Below, one piece after another: positions 637 through 9,555 of a DNA stretch of 25,552 nt. Made by a program: the position numbers and the translations under genes. The notes beneath the pieces are model-generated. The model was not told where the DNA came from. It saw only the letters and a program-made list of their open reading frames with translations, and did no database searches. Positions within the stretch are counted from its first letter, which is position 1, and each line of letters opens with the position of its first letter. The stretch comes from a virus, in the IMG/VR virus record IMGVR_UViG_3300048592_000956, positions 1 to 25,552 of that record, one strand, 5' to 3'.

Positions 637-871
637 GATCCCCCTCCTCACCTGGCACACGTGCCACAATGTACACACTCCGTACACTTTCATCACTGCG
701 AGGCATTTTCTCATTGGATACATCGATCACCTCGTAGTTGCCAGCTCTGAGGGCGTCCACCACAGCGCCCACAAAAGCCTTGATCAAACCCGGTGCAGCC
801 TGGATGCGGATGTTCCCCACCGGTACCTTCTGCACCTTATCAATTCGCTCCTGTTGTTCAGCCAATAACAC
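617..871 (-). CDS. Hypothetical protein, 84 aa
   Basis: The start is a GTG at 871, nine bases after AGGAGG. That ribosome site contains the stop codon of the methyltransferase (TAA at 877-879). The protein starts MLLAEQQERIDKVQKV. It has an amphipathic helix-rich region (PGLIKAFVGAVVDALRAGNY) followed by a probable strand (RSVYIVARV). The size and the mixed alpha/beta pattern are common in phage accessory proteins, but no family is recognised. It also overlaps the end of the alternative frame at 858. It is probably translated from the same early mRNA as the methyltransferase. Confidence 0.6.
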   Translation of the reverse strand: MLLAEQQERIDKVQKVPVGNIRIQAAPGLIKAFVGAVVDALRAGNYEVIDVSNEKMPRSDESVRSVYIVARVPGEEGDHAVCDD

Positions 872-1622
872 TTCTATTACCTCCTGTTTTCTGACAATTC
901 ATTCCATGCAGTTCGCACCACTGCCGGTATTTGTCCATTTCCAATGGCTCTAATGCGGTCCATCCAATGGGGAATCCCATAATCCATTCCAAGAAACTCA
1001 AATTCGGGTATTCTCCAAAGCTTTTGATCATCTGTGCGATAATACTTTCCGTTCCACCATTCTTGTTCCTGGTTAGTTCTCTTTTCATGATGGATTTTTT
1101 GCTGAACCGCATGCGGATATAATCCGACGCCGTGGGTGTGATCCACAAGGAATATTCTCTTGCGTAATTGCGGGGAACCGACGCTCGTGCCTTGAAAAGT
1201 TCCCCATATTGCACCATACCCCATGACGGATAAGGTGGAGAGAATTTCTCCAAAGTATTCGTAATGAACGAGCCTTGATACGTTTTCCAGCATGATTCGC
1301 CTGGGTCGTACTTCGCCAATGATACGCGCGGTGTCCGGCCATAAATTTCGTTCGTCGTTTTCTGCTCTTCCTTTACCTGCTGAGCTGTATGGCTGACACG
1401 GGAATCCTGCAGTGACAATATCCACCGATCCAGCCCAGGGACGCCCGTCGAAGGTGCGCACGTCGTCCCAGATGGGTGCATCATCGAGGATTCCATCCCG
1501 GATTCTGGCTTTGATGATTTCGACTGCGTAGTCATTGTTTTCGACATAGCAGACGGTCCGCCATCCGAGCAATTTGGATCCAAGCAATCCGCCGCCTCCA
1601 CCGGCAAATAAAGCCAGCTCAT
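858..1622 (-). CDS. Possible second protein encoded in the +1 frame of the methyltransferase gene, 254 aa
   Basis: This frame is open for 254 codons on the same strand as the methyltransferase and covers almost all of it. It begins with an ATG four bases downstream of the methyltransferase TTG and could use the same GGAGG. It does not look like random sequence. SLAKYDP (101-107), CWKTYQGS (111-118), YPSWGM (131-136), LWITPTASD (159-167) and EWIMGFPIGWTALEP (212-226) match, as I remember them, motifs in phage proteins usually called hypothetical or methyltransferase-associated. Those database proteins may themselves be +1 readings of methyltransferase genes, so the similarity alone does not prove translation. 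If real, it is an overprinted gene or one reached by frameshifting. Its function is unknown. Confidence 0.4.
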   Translation of the reverse strand: MSWLYLPVEAADCLDPNCSDGGPSAMSKTMTTQSKSSKPESGMESSMMHPSGTTCAPSTGVPGLDRWILSLQDSRVSHTAQQVKEEQKTTNEIYGRTPRVSLAKYDPGESCWKTYQGSFITNTLEKFSPPYPSWGMVQYGELFKARASVPRNYAREYSLWITPTASDYIRMRFSKKSIMKRELTRNKNGGTESIIAQMIKSFGEYPNLSFLEWIMGFPIGWTALEPLEMDKYRQWCELHGMNCQKTGGNRSVIG

Positions 1623-1626
1623 TCAA
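877..1626 (-). CDS. Solitary C5-cytosine DNA methyltransferase, 249 aa
   Basis: It transfers a methyl group from SAM to carbon 5 of cytosine in a short DNA target. The family motifs are present in order: motif I FAGGGG (residues 7-12, SAM binding), motif IV GFPCQPYS (74-81, catalytic Cys77), motif VI ENV (114-116), motif VIII QLRKRIF (153-159) and motif X IGNGQIP (228-234). At 249 residues it is short for the family, and the target-recognition segment between motifs VIII and X is only about 65 residues. No restriction endonuclease gene is adjacent, so a likely role is protecting phage DNA from host restriction or regulatory marking. The start must be the TTG at 1626: the codons before it are TGG and TGA in frame, and GGAGG lies six bases upstream. 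The whole gene is overlapped by a +1-frame ORF. Confidence 0.9.
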   Translation of the reverse strand: MNELALFAGGGGGLLGSKLLGWRTVCYVENNDYAVEIIKARIRDGILDDAPIWDDVRTFDGRPWAGSVDIVTAGFPCQPYSSAGKGRAENDERNLWPDTARIIGEVRPRRIMLENVSRLVHYEYFGEILSTLSVMGYGAIWGTFQGTSVGSPQLRKRIFLVDHTHGVGLYPHAVQQKIHHEKRTNQEQEWWNGKYYRTDDQKLWRIPEFEFLGMDYGIPHWMDRIRAIGNGQIPAVVRTAWNELSENRR

Positions 1627-1855
1627 CCATCACCTCCACATGATGATTAAACGGCACGTACCTCTGAACTACACCCAGACGATTGGCCAATGCACACTGA
1701 TCCATCGACACGCCGCGGCTTTCCGTGAGCCGGAAATCCTTCAATCCCAGCGATGGAATACTGACTCTCGTGCCGGTGTTGATAATCTCACCGGCACTGA
1801 TCATCTCACGCAGCTTATCCGGATGGATCACGACAAATTCGAATTCATTGGACAT
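1619..1855 (-). CDS. Hypothetical protein, 78 aa
   Basis: The ATG at 1855 (MSNEFEFVVIHP) has GAGGTACAG just upstream and is preferred over the earlier in-frame ATGs, which have no ribosome site. It overlaps the end of the 38-residue ORF before it by 11 bases and the methyltransferase start by 8 bases, so all three are probably translationally coupled. The product looks soluble and mixed alpha/beta, with a Val-rich end (HHVEVMVE). No motif is recognised. Its position directly before a methyltransferase could mean a partner or an antirestriction accessory role, but nothing in the sequence supports a specific function. Confidence 0.6.
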   Translation of the reverse strand: MSNEFEFVVIHPDKLREMISAGEIINTGTRVSIPSLGLKDFRLTESRGVSMDQCALANRLGVVQRYVPFNHHVEVMVE

Positions 1856-1961
1856 CCTGTACCTCGCTGTCATCCACCTGGGCATGGCCAAAGAAAATTA
1901 GAATCAGGTGTCCAAGGATCTCAATGCCAAGCTGTTTAAACCATTCATAAACTTTCCTCAT
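1845..1961 (-). CDS. Very small hydrophobic ORF, 38 aa
   Basis: The frame begins MRKVYEWFKQ at an ATG one base after the tyrosine recombinase stop. It has a good ribosome site (GGGAGGTGA) that overlaps the end of the recombinase gene. It has a short hydrophobic run (GIEILGHLILIFFGHA) that could be a marginal membrane helix or the core of an amphipathic helix, then an acidic tail (DDSEVQDVQ). The tight spacing on both sides and the strong SD argue that it is translated. No family is recognised, and the small size limits confidence. Confidence 0.5.
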   Translation of the reverse strand: MRKVYEWFKQLGIEILGHLILIFFGHAQVDDSEVQDVQ

Positions 1962-1962
1962 T

Positions 1963-2988
1963 TCACCTCCCAACGGCGCCACGCTCAGCGGCAGCGAACA
2001 GATCATCTTCCGACAGTCGGGTATAGCGTAAAGAAGTTTCCAGTTTCTTGTGTCTCCCGATTGCCTGGACGGCCCGTACATCGGACCCTGCATCCAGTAC
2101 CTGCGTGAGCGTGGTATGTCGTAAGCTGTGTGCAGTAAAACGGATACCAGTCCTAGCACTCACCTCGAGCACCGTCTTCTGCACGGCCCGCGTGGTCAGC
2201 TCTTCGCCGTTTTCCGCGGGAAACAACAATTTTGAATCTCTTATAGGCATCTCCTTTCTGATTTGCAACCAGTCCTGTAAAAAATCGCGGGCAATCAACG
2301 GCACCGGCACATCGCCGGTGGTTCCGCGTTTCGCAATCGACCCATGGATATGCACCCAGCCTTTTCGCTCACCCAGGGTGAGATCAGCAAGCTGCAATTG
2401 CACAGCCTCGCCCACACGCAGACCGCTGTAGGCCATCAGCGCGAACAGGGCCCGGTTACGCATGGCGAGCCAGCGTTCGCGCCCTGTGGTGGGTCGAAAC
2501 TTCTCTTTTTTGTAATTCGTATCAATACTGAGGGTTAAGTACTTCATGATCCGGTTGCGCTCTTGCTTACTCAGGCTCTTTGGCGCCAATTCAACCACCG
2601 GCATGAGCGGCAGTGTGTTGACCTTGGGCATGTTCAGTTTGTACTTTTTATGTGCAAACTCACAGAACATGGCCAGGCTGGCCCGCCTGCGTTCCCAGGT
2701 GGATGGCGCACAGCGTACTTCATCCACCATCCAGGCGCGGTATGATCGCAGATCCATGATATTCATCTGCTCGGGCGAAAACGGCTCGCCGCATTCATTC
2801 ACCCACCAGCAGCAGAAATGGGAGAGGTCATACATATACCCCTTGACCGTATTCACTGCACTGTGTCGCTGCTTCAACCAGGTTTCGAAGTCTTCCCTCC
2901 AGCTCTCCGAGCTTATCGAGGAGTGAGGGGTCGAGGTAGTAATATTCACACGTCTGTTTAACTTCGGGTTCGCCACTGCCAACATCAT
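1963..2988 (-). CDS. Tyrosine recombinase / phage integrase, 341 aa
   Basis: A site-specific recombinase of the lambda-integrase/XerCD superfamily, which cuts DNA through a tyrosine-3'-phosphate intermediate. The N-terminal SAM-like core-binding domain spans about residues 30-115 (the WREDFETWLKQ region) and the catalytic domain about 135-330. The catalytic residues are all visible: Arg191 (SGLR), Lys220 (SIAKRG), His287 and Arg290 (HSLR), His313 (GRH) and nucleophile Tyr322 (RYT). The ATG at 2988 overlaps the stop of the preceding gene in an ATGA arrangement, with GGAGG just upstream. It lies in the early operon, about 350 bp from the tRNA-like structure at 3504-3542, and the same element also carries a large serine recombinase. 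It could be an integrase, a circular-dimer resolvase, or a recombinase acting on a host dif-like site. Confidence 0.92.
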   Translation of the reverse strand: MMLAVANPKLNRRVNITTSTPHSSISSESWREDFETWLKQRHSAVNTVKGYMYDLSHFCCWWVNECGEPFSPEQMNIMDLRSYRAWMVDEVRCAPSTWERRRASLAMFCEFAHKKYKLNMPKVNTLPLMPVVELAPKSLSKQERNRIMKYLTLSIDTNYKKEKFRPTTGRERWLAMRNRALFALMAYSGLRVGEAVQLQLADLTLGERKGWVHIHGSIAKRGTTGDVPVPLIARDFLQDWLQIRKEMPIRDSKLLFPAENGEELTTRAVQKTVLEVSARTGIRFTAHSLRHTTLTQVLDAGSDVRAVQAIGRHKKLETSLRYTRLSEDDLFAAAERGAVGR

Positions 2989-6417: not shown

Positions 6418-7023
6418 ATGGATGATAAAAACAAATTAGGTAATTTCACAGTCACAATTGATCCGAATGAAACATATAAAGAACCAACCGCATACGATAT
6501 GTTTCTGGATATGTATTACGCGGTAGAACATGAACACTATCAAAAAGTTGCTGATTACGAATTAATGAATCCTACTGAATGGCAAACTGTGCTTGGTTTT
6601 CGCAATCTTTTTGCTGGTTCCCAATCGCCTGCCTGGATAGACAATTATTTCAAGAACAATCCGAAATATAAAATTGATTTATGTGCATTAACTGTCGCAC
6701 AAATTTATTCTCCAATCCCCTTGGATTTGCTTAAAGTTTGTATCAAATTCAAATTTCAAACTAATCATGAATATTTTCTAGCTCATCTTCTTCCTGTTAT
6801 TAATTTCTACAATGCATGGATTATTTTTAATGAACTCAATAATGATGACACCATCGCAATTGAATATTATTCAGATGAGTATTGCTGTAAAAAATGTGAG
6901 GAGACTGCGAAATATCCCATCCACTTGAATAGATTTAGCCTATCCGATTTACCACCGCTCAAGGAATGCGAAAATGGCATAAATTGCAAAACAAAAATTA
7001 GAAAACACATCGATACCAAATGA
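6418..7023 (+). CDS. Hypothetical AT-rich protein with a C-terminal cysteine cluster, 201 aa
   Basis: It starts MDDKNKLGNFTVTIDPNE after a near-perfect SD (AGGAGGGTGAAAT). The body is rich in Asn, Tyr and Phe and looks globular, with a hydrophobic patch (AHLLPVINFYNAWIIFNEL) too polar for a clear membrane helix. At the end are CCKKC (Cys156, 157, 160) and CENGINC (Cys184, 190), a plausible zinc-binding knuckle. The gene is much more AT-rich than the start of the next one. Its stop overlaps the serine recombinase start (ATGA), so they are co-translated. The family is not recognised. Possible roles include a recombinase partner or a cargo exclusion protein, both guesses. Confidence 0.7.
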   Translation: MDDKNKLGNFTVTIDPNETYKEPTAYDMFLDMYYAVEHEHYQKVADYELMNPTEWQTVLGFRNLFAGSQSPAWIDNYFKNNPKYKIDLCALTVAQIYSPIPLDLLKVCIKFKFQTNHEYFLAHLLPVINFYNAWIIFNELNNDDTIAIEYYSDEYCCKKCEETAKYPIHLNRFSLSDLPPLKECENGINCKTKIRKHIDTK

Positions 7024-8642
7024 GTTCCTGCCCCTTCCCGCCTGGCGCCAGCGTTGCCGCCTATTTCCGTGATTCCGGCGGTGTGGGCCAGGACCTATCC
7101 ATTCGTCAGCAAGAGCATGAGGTTCGCTCCTGGTGCTCAGCTAATGAGCTTCGGCTCACCATTATTTTTCAGGATGAAGCCCAATCTGCCTCCTCCACTA
7201 CAGGCAGGGCGGACTTCATCCGCATGATCGAATACTTCGGCCAGCGCAGCCGCCCCGAATTGGGCGTGGTCATCTGGAAACTTTCCCGCTTCGCCCGTGA
7301 AATTGACGATGCCCAATACTTCAAAGCCAGCCTGCGCCGCAACGGCTACATCGTCCACTCCCTGCAGGATAACATCCCCACCGGTCCGGAAGGCCGCGTC
7401 TTCGAAACCATGGTCGATTGGATGAATGCTCGCTACCTCAAGGATCTCTCCGAGGATGTCAAACGCGGCCAGCGCCACAACCTCAATGCCTTTGGCGGGT
7501 TCTGGGGCACGCCGCCCCGTGGCTTTATGTTTGGTGACCCCGTACAAGTGGGCTTGAAACGCAACGCGCAGCCGCGCATTATCCGCCGCTGGGTTCCGGA
7601 TCCGGATATGGTCCCTCTGGTACGCAAAGCATTTCACATGCGCGCCCAGGGCGCCTCGCTGGGACAAATCCTCAAAGAGACGGAATTGTTCTCAAGCACA
7701 GGATCCATGACTTATTTCTTCAAAAATGAAATTTACATCGGACGGTTTTATTTTGGGGGAGAATTGATCGAAAACTTTTGTGAACCAATCATTGATATGG
7801 ATACCTGGGAGCTGGTTCAAAACAGTTATCACCAAAAAGAAAAGAAAATGGATAGAATAGAGAATATGAAACATCATCCGCGTACCAAAACCAGCGATTA
7901 TCTACTAACCGGCCTCCTGCAATGCCGGGAGTGCGGCGCTCCTATGACAGGCCATAGCTCCACCAACAAAGCAAAGCAAATCACGAATCGCTATTACTCC
8001 TGCACCAACCGCAAAAAAACGTACGGGGACCGGTGCAATTCATTATCCGTTCCCAAAGACCAATTGGAATTATTCATTGTCAACGAACTCACCGAACACA
8101 TCCTGGATGCGGATAACCTCCTGCACGTGAAACGGGATATTGAATCCAGAGTAGAGAACGACATAACCGAAAAGCAATCCCTCCTCAAACAGCTTCAGAA
8201 CGAACAAAAAGAAAATAATCGAGCACTCACAAACCTGCTCGATTCAATCGAAAGAATGGGATATATCGATGTAGTCGAAGAACGGATCCGGGAAAAACGC
8301 AGCATCGCCAGTGACCTGGACTTCCGCATTCAAAAAATGAAAGAAGAGATCGAGCGGTTAACCAACCTGCCCAGCGACGAAGAGATCCAGGAACTTGGCA
8401 GCAAACTGCGTCCCTTCCTGAATAGCGTGGATAACGAACAACTGCGCATCTGGATGCGCAGTTTGATCGAACATATTGAAGTAACCCGAAAAGACGAAAA
8501 CCTCCAAATAGCGATATTCTACTATTTCCCTGATGAGGTCGTGCCTACGGAAAGGAGCCATCGGAGTGGCTACGTCTATAGACACGACCTTGTAATTCAA
8601 CCCGGTTGGGTTGATTGCGAGGTCATCAATGAACAGAAATAA
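7020..8642 (+). CDS. Large serine recombinase / integrase, 540 aa
   Basis: A large serine integrase, which joins attP and attB through a 5'-phosphoserine intermediate without host factors. The resolvase domain is at residues 10-160, with catalytic Ser19 (YFRDSGG), SIRQQ, and the KLSRFAR arginines. The recombinase domain follows (about 165-300). Next comes a zinc ribbon with CREC and two later cysteines (YYSC, GDRC; about 305-350) and a long coiled coil (about 370-460), the part that controls synapsis direction. The N-terminal part up to about base 7680 is visibly GC-richer and prefers C-ending codons, unlike the rest. It overlaps the genes on both sides. A recombination directionality factor is not obvious, and the two neighbouring genes are candidates. 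Confidence 0.93.
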   Translation: MSSCPFPPGASVAAYFRDSGGVGQDLSIRQQEHEVRSWCSANELRLTIIFQDEAQSASSTTGRADFIRMIEYFGQRSRPELGVVIWKLSRFAREIDDAQYFKASLRRNGYIVHSLQDNIPTGPEGRVFETMVDWMNARYLKDLSEDVKRGQRHNLNAFGGFWGTPPRGFMFGDPVQVGLKRNAQPRIIRRWVPDPDMVPLVRKAFHMRAQGASLGQILKETELFSSTGSMTYFFKNEIYIGRFYFGGELIENFCEPIIDMDTWELVQNSYHQKEKKMDRIENMKHHPRTKTSDYLLTGLLQCRECGAPMTGHSSTNKAKQITNRYYSCTNRKKTYGDRCNSLSVPKDQLELFIVNELTEHILDADNLLHVKRDIESRVENDITEKQSLLKQLQNEQKENNRALTNLLDSIERMGYIDVVEERIREKRSIASDLDFRIQKMKEEIERLTNLPSDEEIQELGSKLRPFLNSVDNEQLRIWMRSLIEHIEVTRKDENLQIAIFYYFPDEVVPTERSHRSGYVYRHDLVIQPGWVDCEVINEQK

Positions 8643-9555
8643 GTTTCTTTCCATTCTCTGGTGGGGTATCGGAATTGGTATAGTTATCGGCTGTAGTGTC
8701 AGTGATTATAGCGGTTTTGATTATTACGTTACCTTTCTGCCCCAGGGACTAAAGATGTCTATCTCTGAAATCCGAAATCCGATGTGGATTTATCTCATTA
8801 TTTCACCAATCACACATCTGCCGGTCCGCCTTGGTTTTGCCGTATTTTCAGCCATCAATTTGATCCAGCTTCATTACACATGCAAATTATATGGGGCAAA
8901 TCGTTTTGCTGTTCTCTTGTCTTTCCCTGCACTTTGGATTTTCTGGTACGGTCAATTGGATATTTACGTTGCTTTTGGTATTGTGCTAGGAGCATGGTCT
9001 CTAAATAATAACCGGCCAATCTTGACCGGTGTTTCCATTTTACTGATTATGATCAAACCACAACTTGGTTTACCTATTTCAATTGCATATTTCATTTGGT
9101 CTTTGCGTCAGGGTGGTGCTCTCAAAACAATTTATCCGATTCTGGGTATTACTTTTCTTACTTTACTCGTTTGGGGATGGGACTGGCCAATTCACTGGGT
9201 CATCAATCTTACCAAAGCCACTGGTGCAGATCAATGGTTCCTGGGCCAGAAAGCCAATATCGGTTTATACCCCTATGGCCTGATTGCCTGGCTAGGCTTG
9301 CTCATTCCCATGAGCCGTGAAAAGCGTATACAATTTATCCTTGTTGCAACCATTGTAAGCATGCCCTATATCGGCACATATTCCCTCATCATCTTACTGG
9401 TTTTGCAGCCGCACTTCTGGTTTTTTGTCCTTGCTTCAACACCCGTTTTGTTTGGCCAATTTGGATATAGCATCACTGCATTAATTTCCCCACTTTTCCT
9501 TCTCTCACTCCTTCCACAATTCCACACTGGTATATATACTCGTGCCATAGATTGA
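8629..9555 (+). CDS. Polytopic membrane protein, GT87 (mannosyltransferase)-like, 308 aa
   Basis: The start ATG at 8629 follows GAGGT at a five-base gap, inside the serine recombinase end (stop at 8642), so the two are translationally coupled. The chain has about eight to nine hydrophobic helices. The region GQLDIYVAFGIVLGAW, then ILTGVSILLIMIKPQLGLP, matches the GQ...AG..LGL...IKPQ pattern of GT87 polyprenyl-phosphate-dependent glycosyltransferases, which act at the membrane. An acidic FDYYVTFLP motif near the N terminus could be the catalytic region. In a phage this could alter host surface glycans and block superinfection (seroconversion), or be host cargo. Its last 51 bases overlap the end of the tail-fibre gene on the other strand. 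Confidence 0.7.
   Translation: MNRNKFLSILWWGIGIGIVIGCSVSDYSGFDYYVTFLPQGLKMSISEIRNPMWIYLIISPITHLPVRLGFAVFSAINLIQLHYTCKLYGANRFAVLLSFPALWIFWYGQLDIYVAFGIVLGAWSLNNNRPILTGVSILLIMIKPQLGLPISIAYFIWSLRQGGALKTIYPILGITFLTLLVWGWDWPIHWVINLTKATGADQWFLGQKANIGLYPYGLIAWLGLLIPMSREKRIQFILVATIVSMPYIGTYSLIILLVLQPHFWFFVLASTPVLFGQFGYSITALISPLFLLSLLPQFHTGIYTRAID

Follow-up and report, generated by a model that had tools for sequence, protein, structure and literature searches.

Does the DNA that encodes a phage cytosine methyltransferase also encode a second, functionally related protein in another frame? The question arises from an earlier note on the window analyzed here, the whole 25,552-nucleotide stretch of IMG/VR virus record IMGVR_UViG_3300048592_000956, in which two overlapping frames both resembled conserved proteins. 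That note posed two alternatives for the second frame: true overprinting, or a shadow of the methyltransferase held open by strong constraint.

Two Reading Frames at One Locus

Both frames lie where they had been placed, with the zero frame (alpha) running from 1626 to 877 and the +1 ORF (beta) from 1622 to 858 over 254 codons, and all of the peptides quoted for the second frame are located in it. The double use of the motif X DNA is likewise borne out, the same nucleotides being read as IGNGQIP in alpha and as PLEMDKY in beta. The features of the locus are as follows.

877..1626, minus strand: alpha, C5-cytosine methyltransferase frame, 249 aa, TTG start, with motifs I-VIII and X and without motif IX (PF00145, phrog_363, AF2 and VIA-align)
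858..1622, minus strand: beta, +1 frame ORF, 254 aa, ATG start (phrog_1008, tblastn, openness and selection tests)
1138..1626, minus strand: alpha motifs I-VIII, the catalytic large domain; the weakly conserved N-terminal part of beta is coded there too (column identities)
1275..1322, minus strand: beta block SLAKYDPGESCWKTYQ, over the VRPRRIMLENV region of alpha (beta identity 0.35-0.42 versus 0.22-0.23 expected)
1011..1145, minus strand: variable segment of beta with the ITPTASD (PTP) module, putative target-recognition region, over a predicted disordered linker of alpha (alpha pLDDT, length variation in relatives)
957..1010, minus strand: motif IX-like block of beta, YPNLSFLEWIMGFPIGWT (column identity; best local match by hhalign)
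880..963, minus strand: motif X region of alpha (RAIGNGQIP), co-coding beta ALEPLEMDKYRQW (both frames above nulls)
1633..1637, minus strand: GGAGG, a Shine-Dalgarno-like element of putative role (read from the sequence)
1620..1626, minus strand: overlapping starts TTGAATG, with the alpha TTG at 1626-1624 and the beta ATG at 1622-1620 (read from the sequence)
1619..1891, minus strand: upstream 90-aa ORF, its TGA stop overlapping the beta ATG (ATGA), with putative coupling

Alpha matches phrog_363 (E 8e-53) and PF00145 (E 2.6e-34), the latter over profile positions 4-190 of 324 only. GFPCQP and LENV are found in its sequence. The AF2 model of alpha (pTM 0.74) has a confident M.HhaI-like core that aligns with M.HhaI over 192 residues (VIA-align, Z 21.9, rmsd 2.6), and residues 170-216 and 221-230 have pLDDT values below 50 and are predicted to be disordered. 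Among the hallmarks of a C5-cytosine methyltransferase, alpha possesses motifs I-VIII with the catalytic PCQ, ENV, and the PF00145 fold; it does not combine them with motif IX and a target-recognition domain (TRD) in one chain. The single-chain enzymes M.HhaI and M.HaeIII have the large domain in common with alpha, but their small domain, containing the TRD and motif IX, is missing from it. The earlier description of the zero frame as carrying all main motifs is correct for I-VIII and X and fails for motif IX, which appears to be carried by beta.

Beta matches phrog_1008, labelled 'DNA methyltransferase' (E 1.1e-16), as well as phrog_35493 and phrog_26627, and has a full-length tblastn match in other phages. 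A profile scan matched no Pfam or NCBIfam family to beta, and comparison with PF00145 gave no match. The family phrog_1008 is the beta family, matched by beta of the window, the Lilo (Paenibacillus) phage, mycobacteriophages, and an E. coli phage, and its label is silent on an origin in the second frame of another methyltransferase gene. The structure model of beta is weak (mean pLDDT 61), and the DNA stretch that corresponds to the disordered part of alpha is relatively ordered in beta. This low-confidence model found no PDB match with Foldseek or with VIA-align, and the beta profile matched PDB chains only at the level of chance. Chimeras that join alpha motifs I-VIII, the beta block, and alpha motif X, built for five loci, score no higher against PF00145 than does alpha alone.

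Openness of the +1 Frame

Related loci were gathered in three scans: 80 viral loci collected using alpha-frame patterns only, and a beta-frame collection of 80 viral plus 80 bacterial or archaeal loci. The resulting 240 loci are the 80 top-ranking ones from each scan, a cutoff that could hide less common arrangements; some contigs are shared by both viral scans, so that not all loci are independent. Pooled stop counts used 89 loci, made up of the 80 alpha-selected loci, the window, and eight phage loci from beta matches.

When the codons of the window alpha are shuffled synonymously, a +1 frame open through 247 codons turns up once in 20,000 trials (median 88 codons), and in the 80 alpha-selected viral loci plus the window it is open over a median of 98% of the gene, versus 41% in shuffles. 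The frequent +1 stops that the earlier note named as evidence against a second protein are absent: across the middle of the alpha gene (20% to 80% of its length), none is observed in the 89 loci versus ~278 expected from synonymous shuffles, and those that do occur are confined to the outermost two tenths at either end. In the +2 frame, stops are not depleted and lie slightly above expectation. Canonical phage methyltransferases with an in-frame motif IX (e.g., LTPRECFRLQGFPD) are not depleted in this way either, with 180 +1 stops versus 209 expected. The phase of the alpha/beta overlap is +1 in all 240 loci (best 80 of each scan). More distant clades also have the overlap, namely the Lc-Nu clade and an E. 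coli phage 'C-specific methylase' clade in which GEQV replaces ENV; their +1 frames terminate in blocks such as QETMMGFPKGWTD and RQLMGIPASWDDC. The two-frame overlap in the window is confirmed as real rather than a product of chance.

Openness driven by GC content was considered and rejected, the loci having about 46-67% GC and a +2 frame that is not open; an accident specific to the window was rejected as well, the overlap being present across the 240 loci. The earlier note had also counted the absence of stand-alone +1-type genes against a second protein. No beta without alpha was found among the 240 loci (best 80 of each scan), as would be anticipated were beta one of two parts of an enzyme.

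Conservation of the Start Sites

The start of beta lies 4 nucleotides after that of alpha, and GGAGG is followed by the alpha TTG at a spacing of 6 nucleotides and by the beta ATG at a spacing of 10. The [A/G/T]TGAATGA arrangement recurs in 57 of the 80 alpha-selected loci. In genes with Asn-Glu at this position, codon 2 of alpha is AAT in 67 of 68 (AAT:AAC 67:1), versus an AAT:AAC ratio of 239:352 at the other Asn codons of the same genes. The choice of AAT creates the ATG of beta, although part of the bias may reflect shared ancestry or a general preference for AT near starts. At four loci (L016, L019, L011, and L088), the DNA near position 1501 reads TTAAATGAG, with the ATG of beta in place and no alpha start codon at the usual position, so that alpha must start elsewhere in these genes.

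Ribosomes may initiate at both the TTG and the ATG, 4 nucleotides apart, under the direction of one upstream Shine-Dalgarno element, and dual initiation could be aided by termination-reinitiation at the overlapping stop. In E. coli, AUGUG and GUGUG sites have been demonstrated to combine two neighboring starts with termination-reinitiation at an overlapping UGA (PMC9841429).

Selection along the Two Frames

In aligned pairs, single-nucleotide differences were sorted by their effect in each frame and divided by opportunity, yielding a rate ratio of alpha-silent/beta-changing over alpha-changing/beta-silent differences. In overlapping pairs, the ratio is 15.6 in motifs I-VI, 5.9 in VI-VIII, 0.80 between VIII and X, and 2.55 at X, with values of 10.3, 3.7, 0.62, and 4.6 for the same regions in the Lc-Nu clade and of 29-519 in canonical genes; as the pairs share history, these ratios are effect sizes and not probabilities. 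Upstream of the X region, no alpha-silent difference in the overlapping set involves a beta stop. Normal synonymous variation in the zero frame, which the earlier note would have taken as a refutation, is not what is seen: from motif VIII to motif X, alpha shows restricted synonymous change.

A second test, applied to 39 non-redundant pairs, compared column identity in each frame with a null in which the protein of the other frame is fixed and synonymous codons are shuffled. Across motifs I-VIII, alpha identity is 0.52-0.63 versus 0.21-0.23 expected given beta, and beta identity is 0.31-0.35 versus 0.24-0.25 expected given alpha. Within this region, beta lies near its projection at motifs I-IV (0.306 versus 0.250) and reaches 0.334 versus 0.238 at VI-VIII. 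At codons 206-221, beta identity is 0.491 versus 0.189 expected given alpha, and alpha identity is 0.337 versus 0.283 expected given beta; by this measure, alpha is here little more than a by-product of beta. Both proteins exceed their nulls at motif X. Taken together, the substitution patterns show both frames to behave as protein-coding, with constraint on alpha in motifs I-VIII, on beta between VIII and X, and on both at X. The frame-by-frame tests thus place function first in alpha, then in beta, and again in alpha along the DNA. The first ~100 codons of beta seem to be mostly an open shadow, in which stops are excluded and amino acids are little conserved beyond projection.

Motif IX and the Probable Target-Recognition Region

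Canonical motif IX occurs in none of 77 alpha frames. An IX-like block, typically LNPxWVEWLMGWPxGWT, is present in 72 of the 77 beta frames at a constant distance of 13 codons before motif X of alpha, and EWIMGFPIGWT in the window beta occupies the place expected of motif IX. When beta is aligned by hhalign with canonical methyltransferases, the best local alignment falls exactly on motif IX, weakly in both cases (E 0.05 and 0.11). A natural series of split relatives provides stronger support than this direct profile match for the placement of motif IX in beta. In L017 and L068, alpha ends past motif VIII and the +1 ORF continues, taking in motif IX and then motif X. Mycobacteriophages Firecracker, Pharaoh, and JewelBug each have a pair of annotated genes that share about 180-210 nucleotides in phase +1, and the second gene of the pair carries motifs IX and X. 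The second protein of Firecracker matches positions 441-482 of phrog_116, and the window alpha matches positions 212-400 of the same profile. Motif X is found together with IX on beta in L017, L068, L253, L254, and L256.

The beta segment between the WGM block and motif IX varies from 50 to 244 aa and is longer where PTP modules are more numerous (r 0.74), marking it as the probable target-recognition region. One relative, L038 (IMGVR_UViG_2767802241_000002; alpha frame 1501-2397), has a frame change that puts the motif IX block (DWVEWLMGWPIGWTDLKP) into alpha, with motif X lost from alpha; this change could be a natural frameshift, a pseudogene, or a sequencing error.

A Probable Two-Polypeptide Methyltransferase

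From the sequence comparisons, the preferred interpretation is that one stretch of DNA is read twice to give both subunits of a two-polypeptide C5-cytosine DNA methyltransferase of the M.EcoHK31I type, and to this we assign a probability of roughly 0.85. Alpha would supply AdoMet binding and the catalytic PCQ and ENV, beta would supply target recognition and motif IX, and the complex of the two would methylate phage DNA, probably as protection against host restriction. The order of elements along the DNA, with I-VIII in frame 0, TRD-IX in +1, and X in 0, is that of an ordinary gene, suggesting an origin from a single-chain methyltransferase gene by frame switches around its recognition block. 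We also lean toward a broader proposal, that phage C5 methyltransferases include a large class with dual coding over the entire gene, which yields two interlocking subunits and has the recognition/IX block in the +1 frame; in this class, recognition would evolve in beta via PTP modules as the alpha linker drifts as a shadow.

Other accounts of the +1 frame fare less well. If the methyltransferase frame alone were real, conservation in +1 would be a projection of conserved motifs plus codon bias, and the first ~100 codons of beta do behave nearly so. Canonical methyltransferases, too, yield +1 stretches of 114-160 codons that match the beta profile across motifs IV-VIII, and the annotation of Streptococcus phage P0094 lists one of these as a gene. 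Such a shadow would not, however, account for stop avoidance in +1 or for the stretch from VIII to X, in which constraint is reversed and weaker on alpha than on beta, and canonical genes do not keep their +1 frame open. The shadow account is contradicted by these patterns for beta from about residue 100 onward, and as an explanation of the whole it is barely credible. Between the alternatives posed at the outset, overprinting is thus upheld from about that residue, and a shadow fits only the codons before it.

It is also improbable, if less so, that beta is a genuine overprinted protein with a role unrelated to methylation, such as anti-restriction or regulation. The unrecognized fold of beta would permit this, but the very elements missing from alpha are those that beta seems to have, the beta block is collinear with motif X, split relatives have both IX and X in beta, and beta was never seen without alpha in the 240 loci (best 80 of each scan). 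Programmed frameshifting, in which ribosomes would join alpha I-VIII to the beta block and return for motif X, has the attraction that the collinear elements would give one ordinary methyltransferase chain. It would, however, demand two shifts in opposite directions and leave the start codon of beta superfluous, despite the retention of AAT at codon 2 of alpha; moreover, the beta frame is open upstream of the block as well, and the M.EcoHK31I precedent consists of two polypeptides. We give it a very small chance.

Precedents and Differences

Two-polypeptide C5 methyltransferases are represented by M.AquI and M.EcoHK31I (PMC3404938). In the latter, the large subunit contains I-VIII and X and is also assigned the target-recognition domain, and only motif IX is located on the smaller polypeptide; M.AquI likewise has motif IX on its second polypeptide (PMC3404938). 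The earlier statement that no account of such a pair had been published is incorrect for the principle, since the motif layout of M.EcoHK31I, with IX on its own smaller chain, is on record (PMC3404938); of the phage-wide dual-frame family, no account was found in the literature searched, most subscription papers being outside it. Compared by described motif layout, the window alpha resembles the large subunit of M.EcoHK31I (YGGCCR) in having I-VIII and X without IX, and at the sequence level the window beta has the IX-like block expected of a second polypeptide. The invariant +1 overlap of the window family may be a further likeness: Lee et al. 1995 reportedly found the small subunit of M.EcoHK31I to be encoded within the gene of the large subunit, in another frame. 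The kind of enzyme is already known; the window differs in its nearly complete overlap, in having the recognition region probably in beta, and in belonging to a broad family, which spans many phages as opposed to one restriction-modification enzyme. In the dual-coded class proposed above, the recognition region would fall in beta, unlike its published assignment to the large subunit of M.EcoHK31I. M.AquI (CYCGRG) is similar in comprising two polypeptides with motif IX on the second, but its motif X also resides on the second subunit, whereas in the window X is in alpha. The M.AquI-like arrangement is seen in the relatives with motif X in beta (L017, L068, Firecracker, Pharaoh, and JewelBug).

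If this interpretation is right, what annotations list as a single phage cytosine methyltransferase gene is in many cases a pair of genes. The locus would constitute a same-strand dual-coding region of unusual length and wide conservation, an unusual case in which the overlapping proteins complement each other within one enzyme, and a test bed for the evolution of recognition specificity under dual coding.

Breadth and Annotation

The arrangement occurs in phages of Pseudomonadota, Actinomycetota, Bacillota, Bacteroidota, and cyanobacteria and in genome contigs of many phyla, including an archaeal one. Lactobacillus phage Lc-Nu and Mycobacterium phage OwlsT2W are two examples with the dual-coded locus. 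Gene callers usually annotate one of the two frames only. In Stenotrophomonas phage SOVA965 (L001:1696-2196) and Pseudomonas phage phPA-G (L002:1501-2229), beta is annotated and the alpha frame is not. The annotated half can be alpha or beta, so that, if the two-subunit reading holds, a clone designed from annotation alone could be inactive. The E. coli EC6868 chromosome (L375:493-1299) encodes a cytosine methyltransferase akin to the phage 'C-specific methylase' with a long open +1 frame containing MARLLMGFPQGWSYC; its RefSeq annotation consists of alpha only, and the related phage gene has matches in 50 of 5,426 E. coli genomes. In Streptococcus phage P0094, P0094_43 (L255:1160-1579) is labelled as a second 'DNA methyltransferase' and corresponds to a +1 shadow ORF; the methyltransferase that it overlaps is a canonical single-chain enzyme with its own motif IX.

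The window itself also carries integrase, portal, and capsid genes. A tyrosine integrase (1963-2988, minus strand) and a large serine recombinase (7020-8642, plus strand) occur on the one contig; the recombinase, on the strand opposite to the integrase, adjoins a GT87-like glycosyltransferase ORF at 8611-9555.
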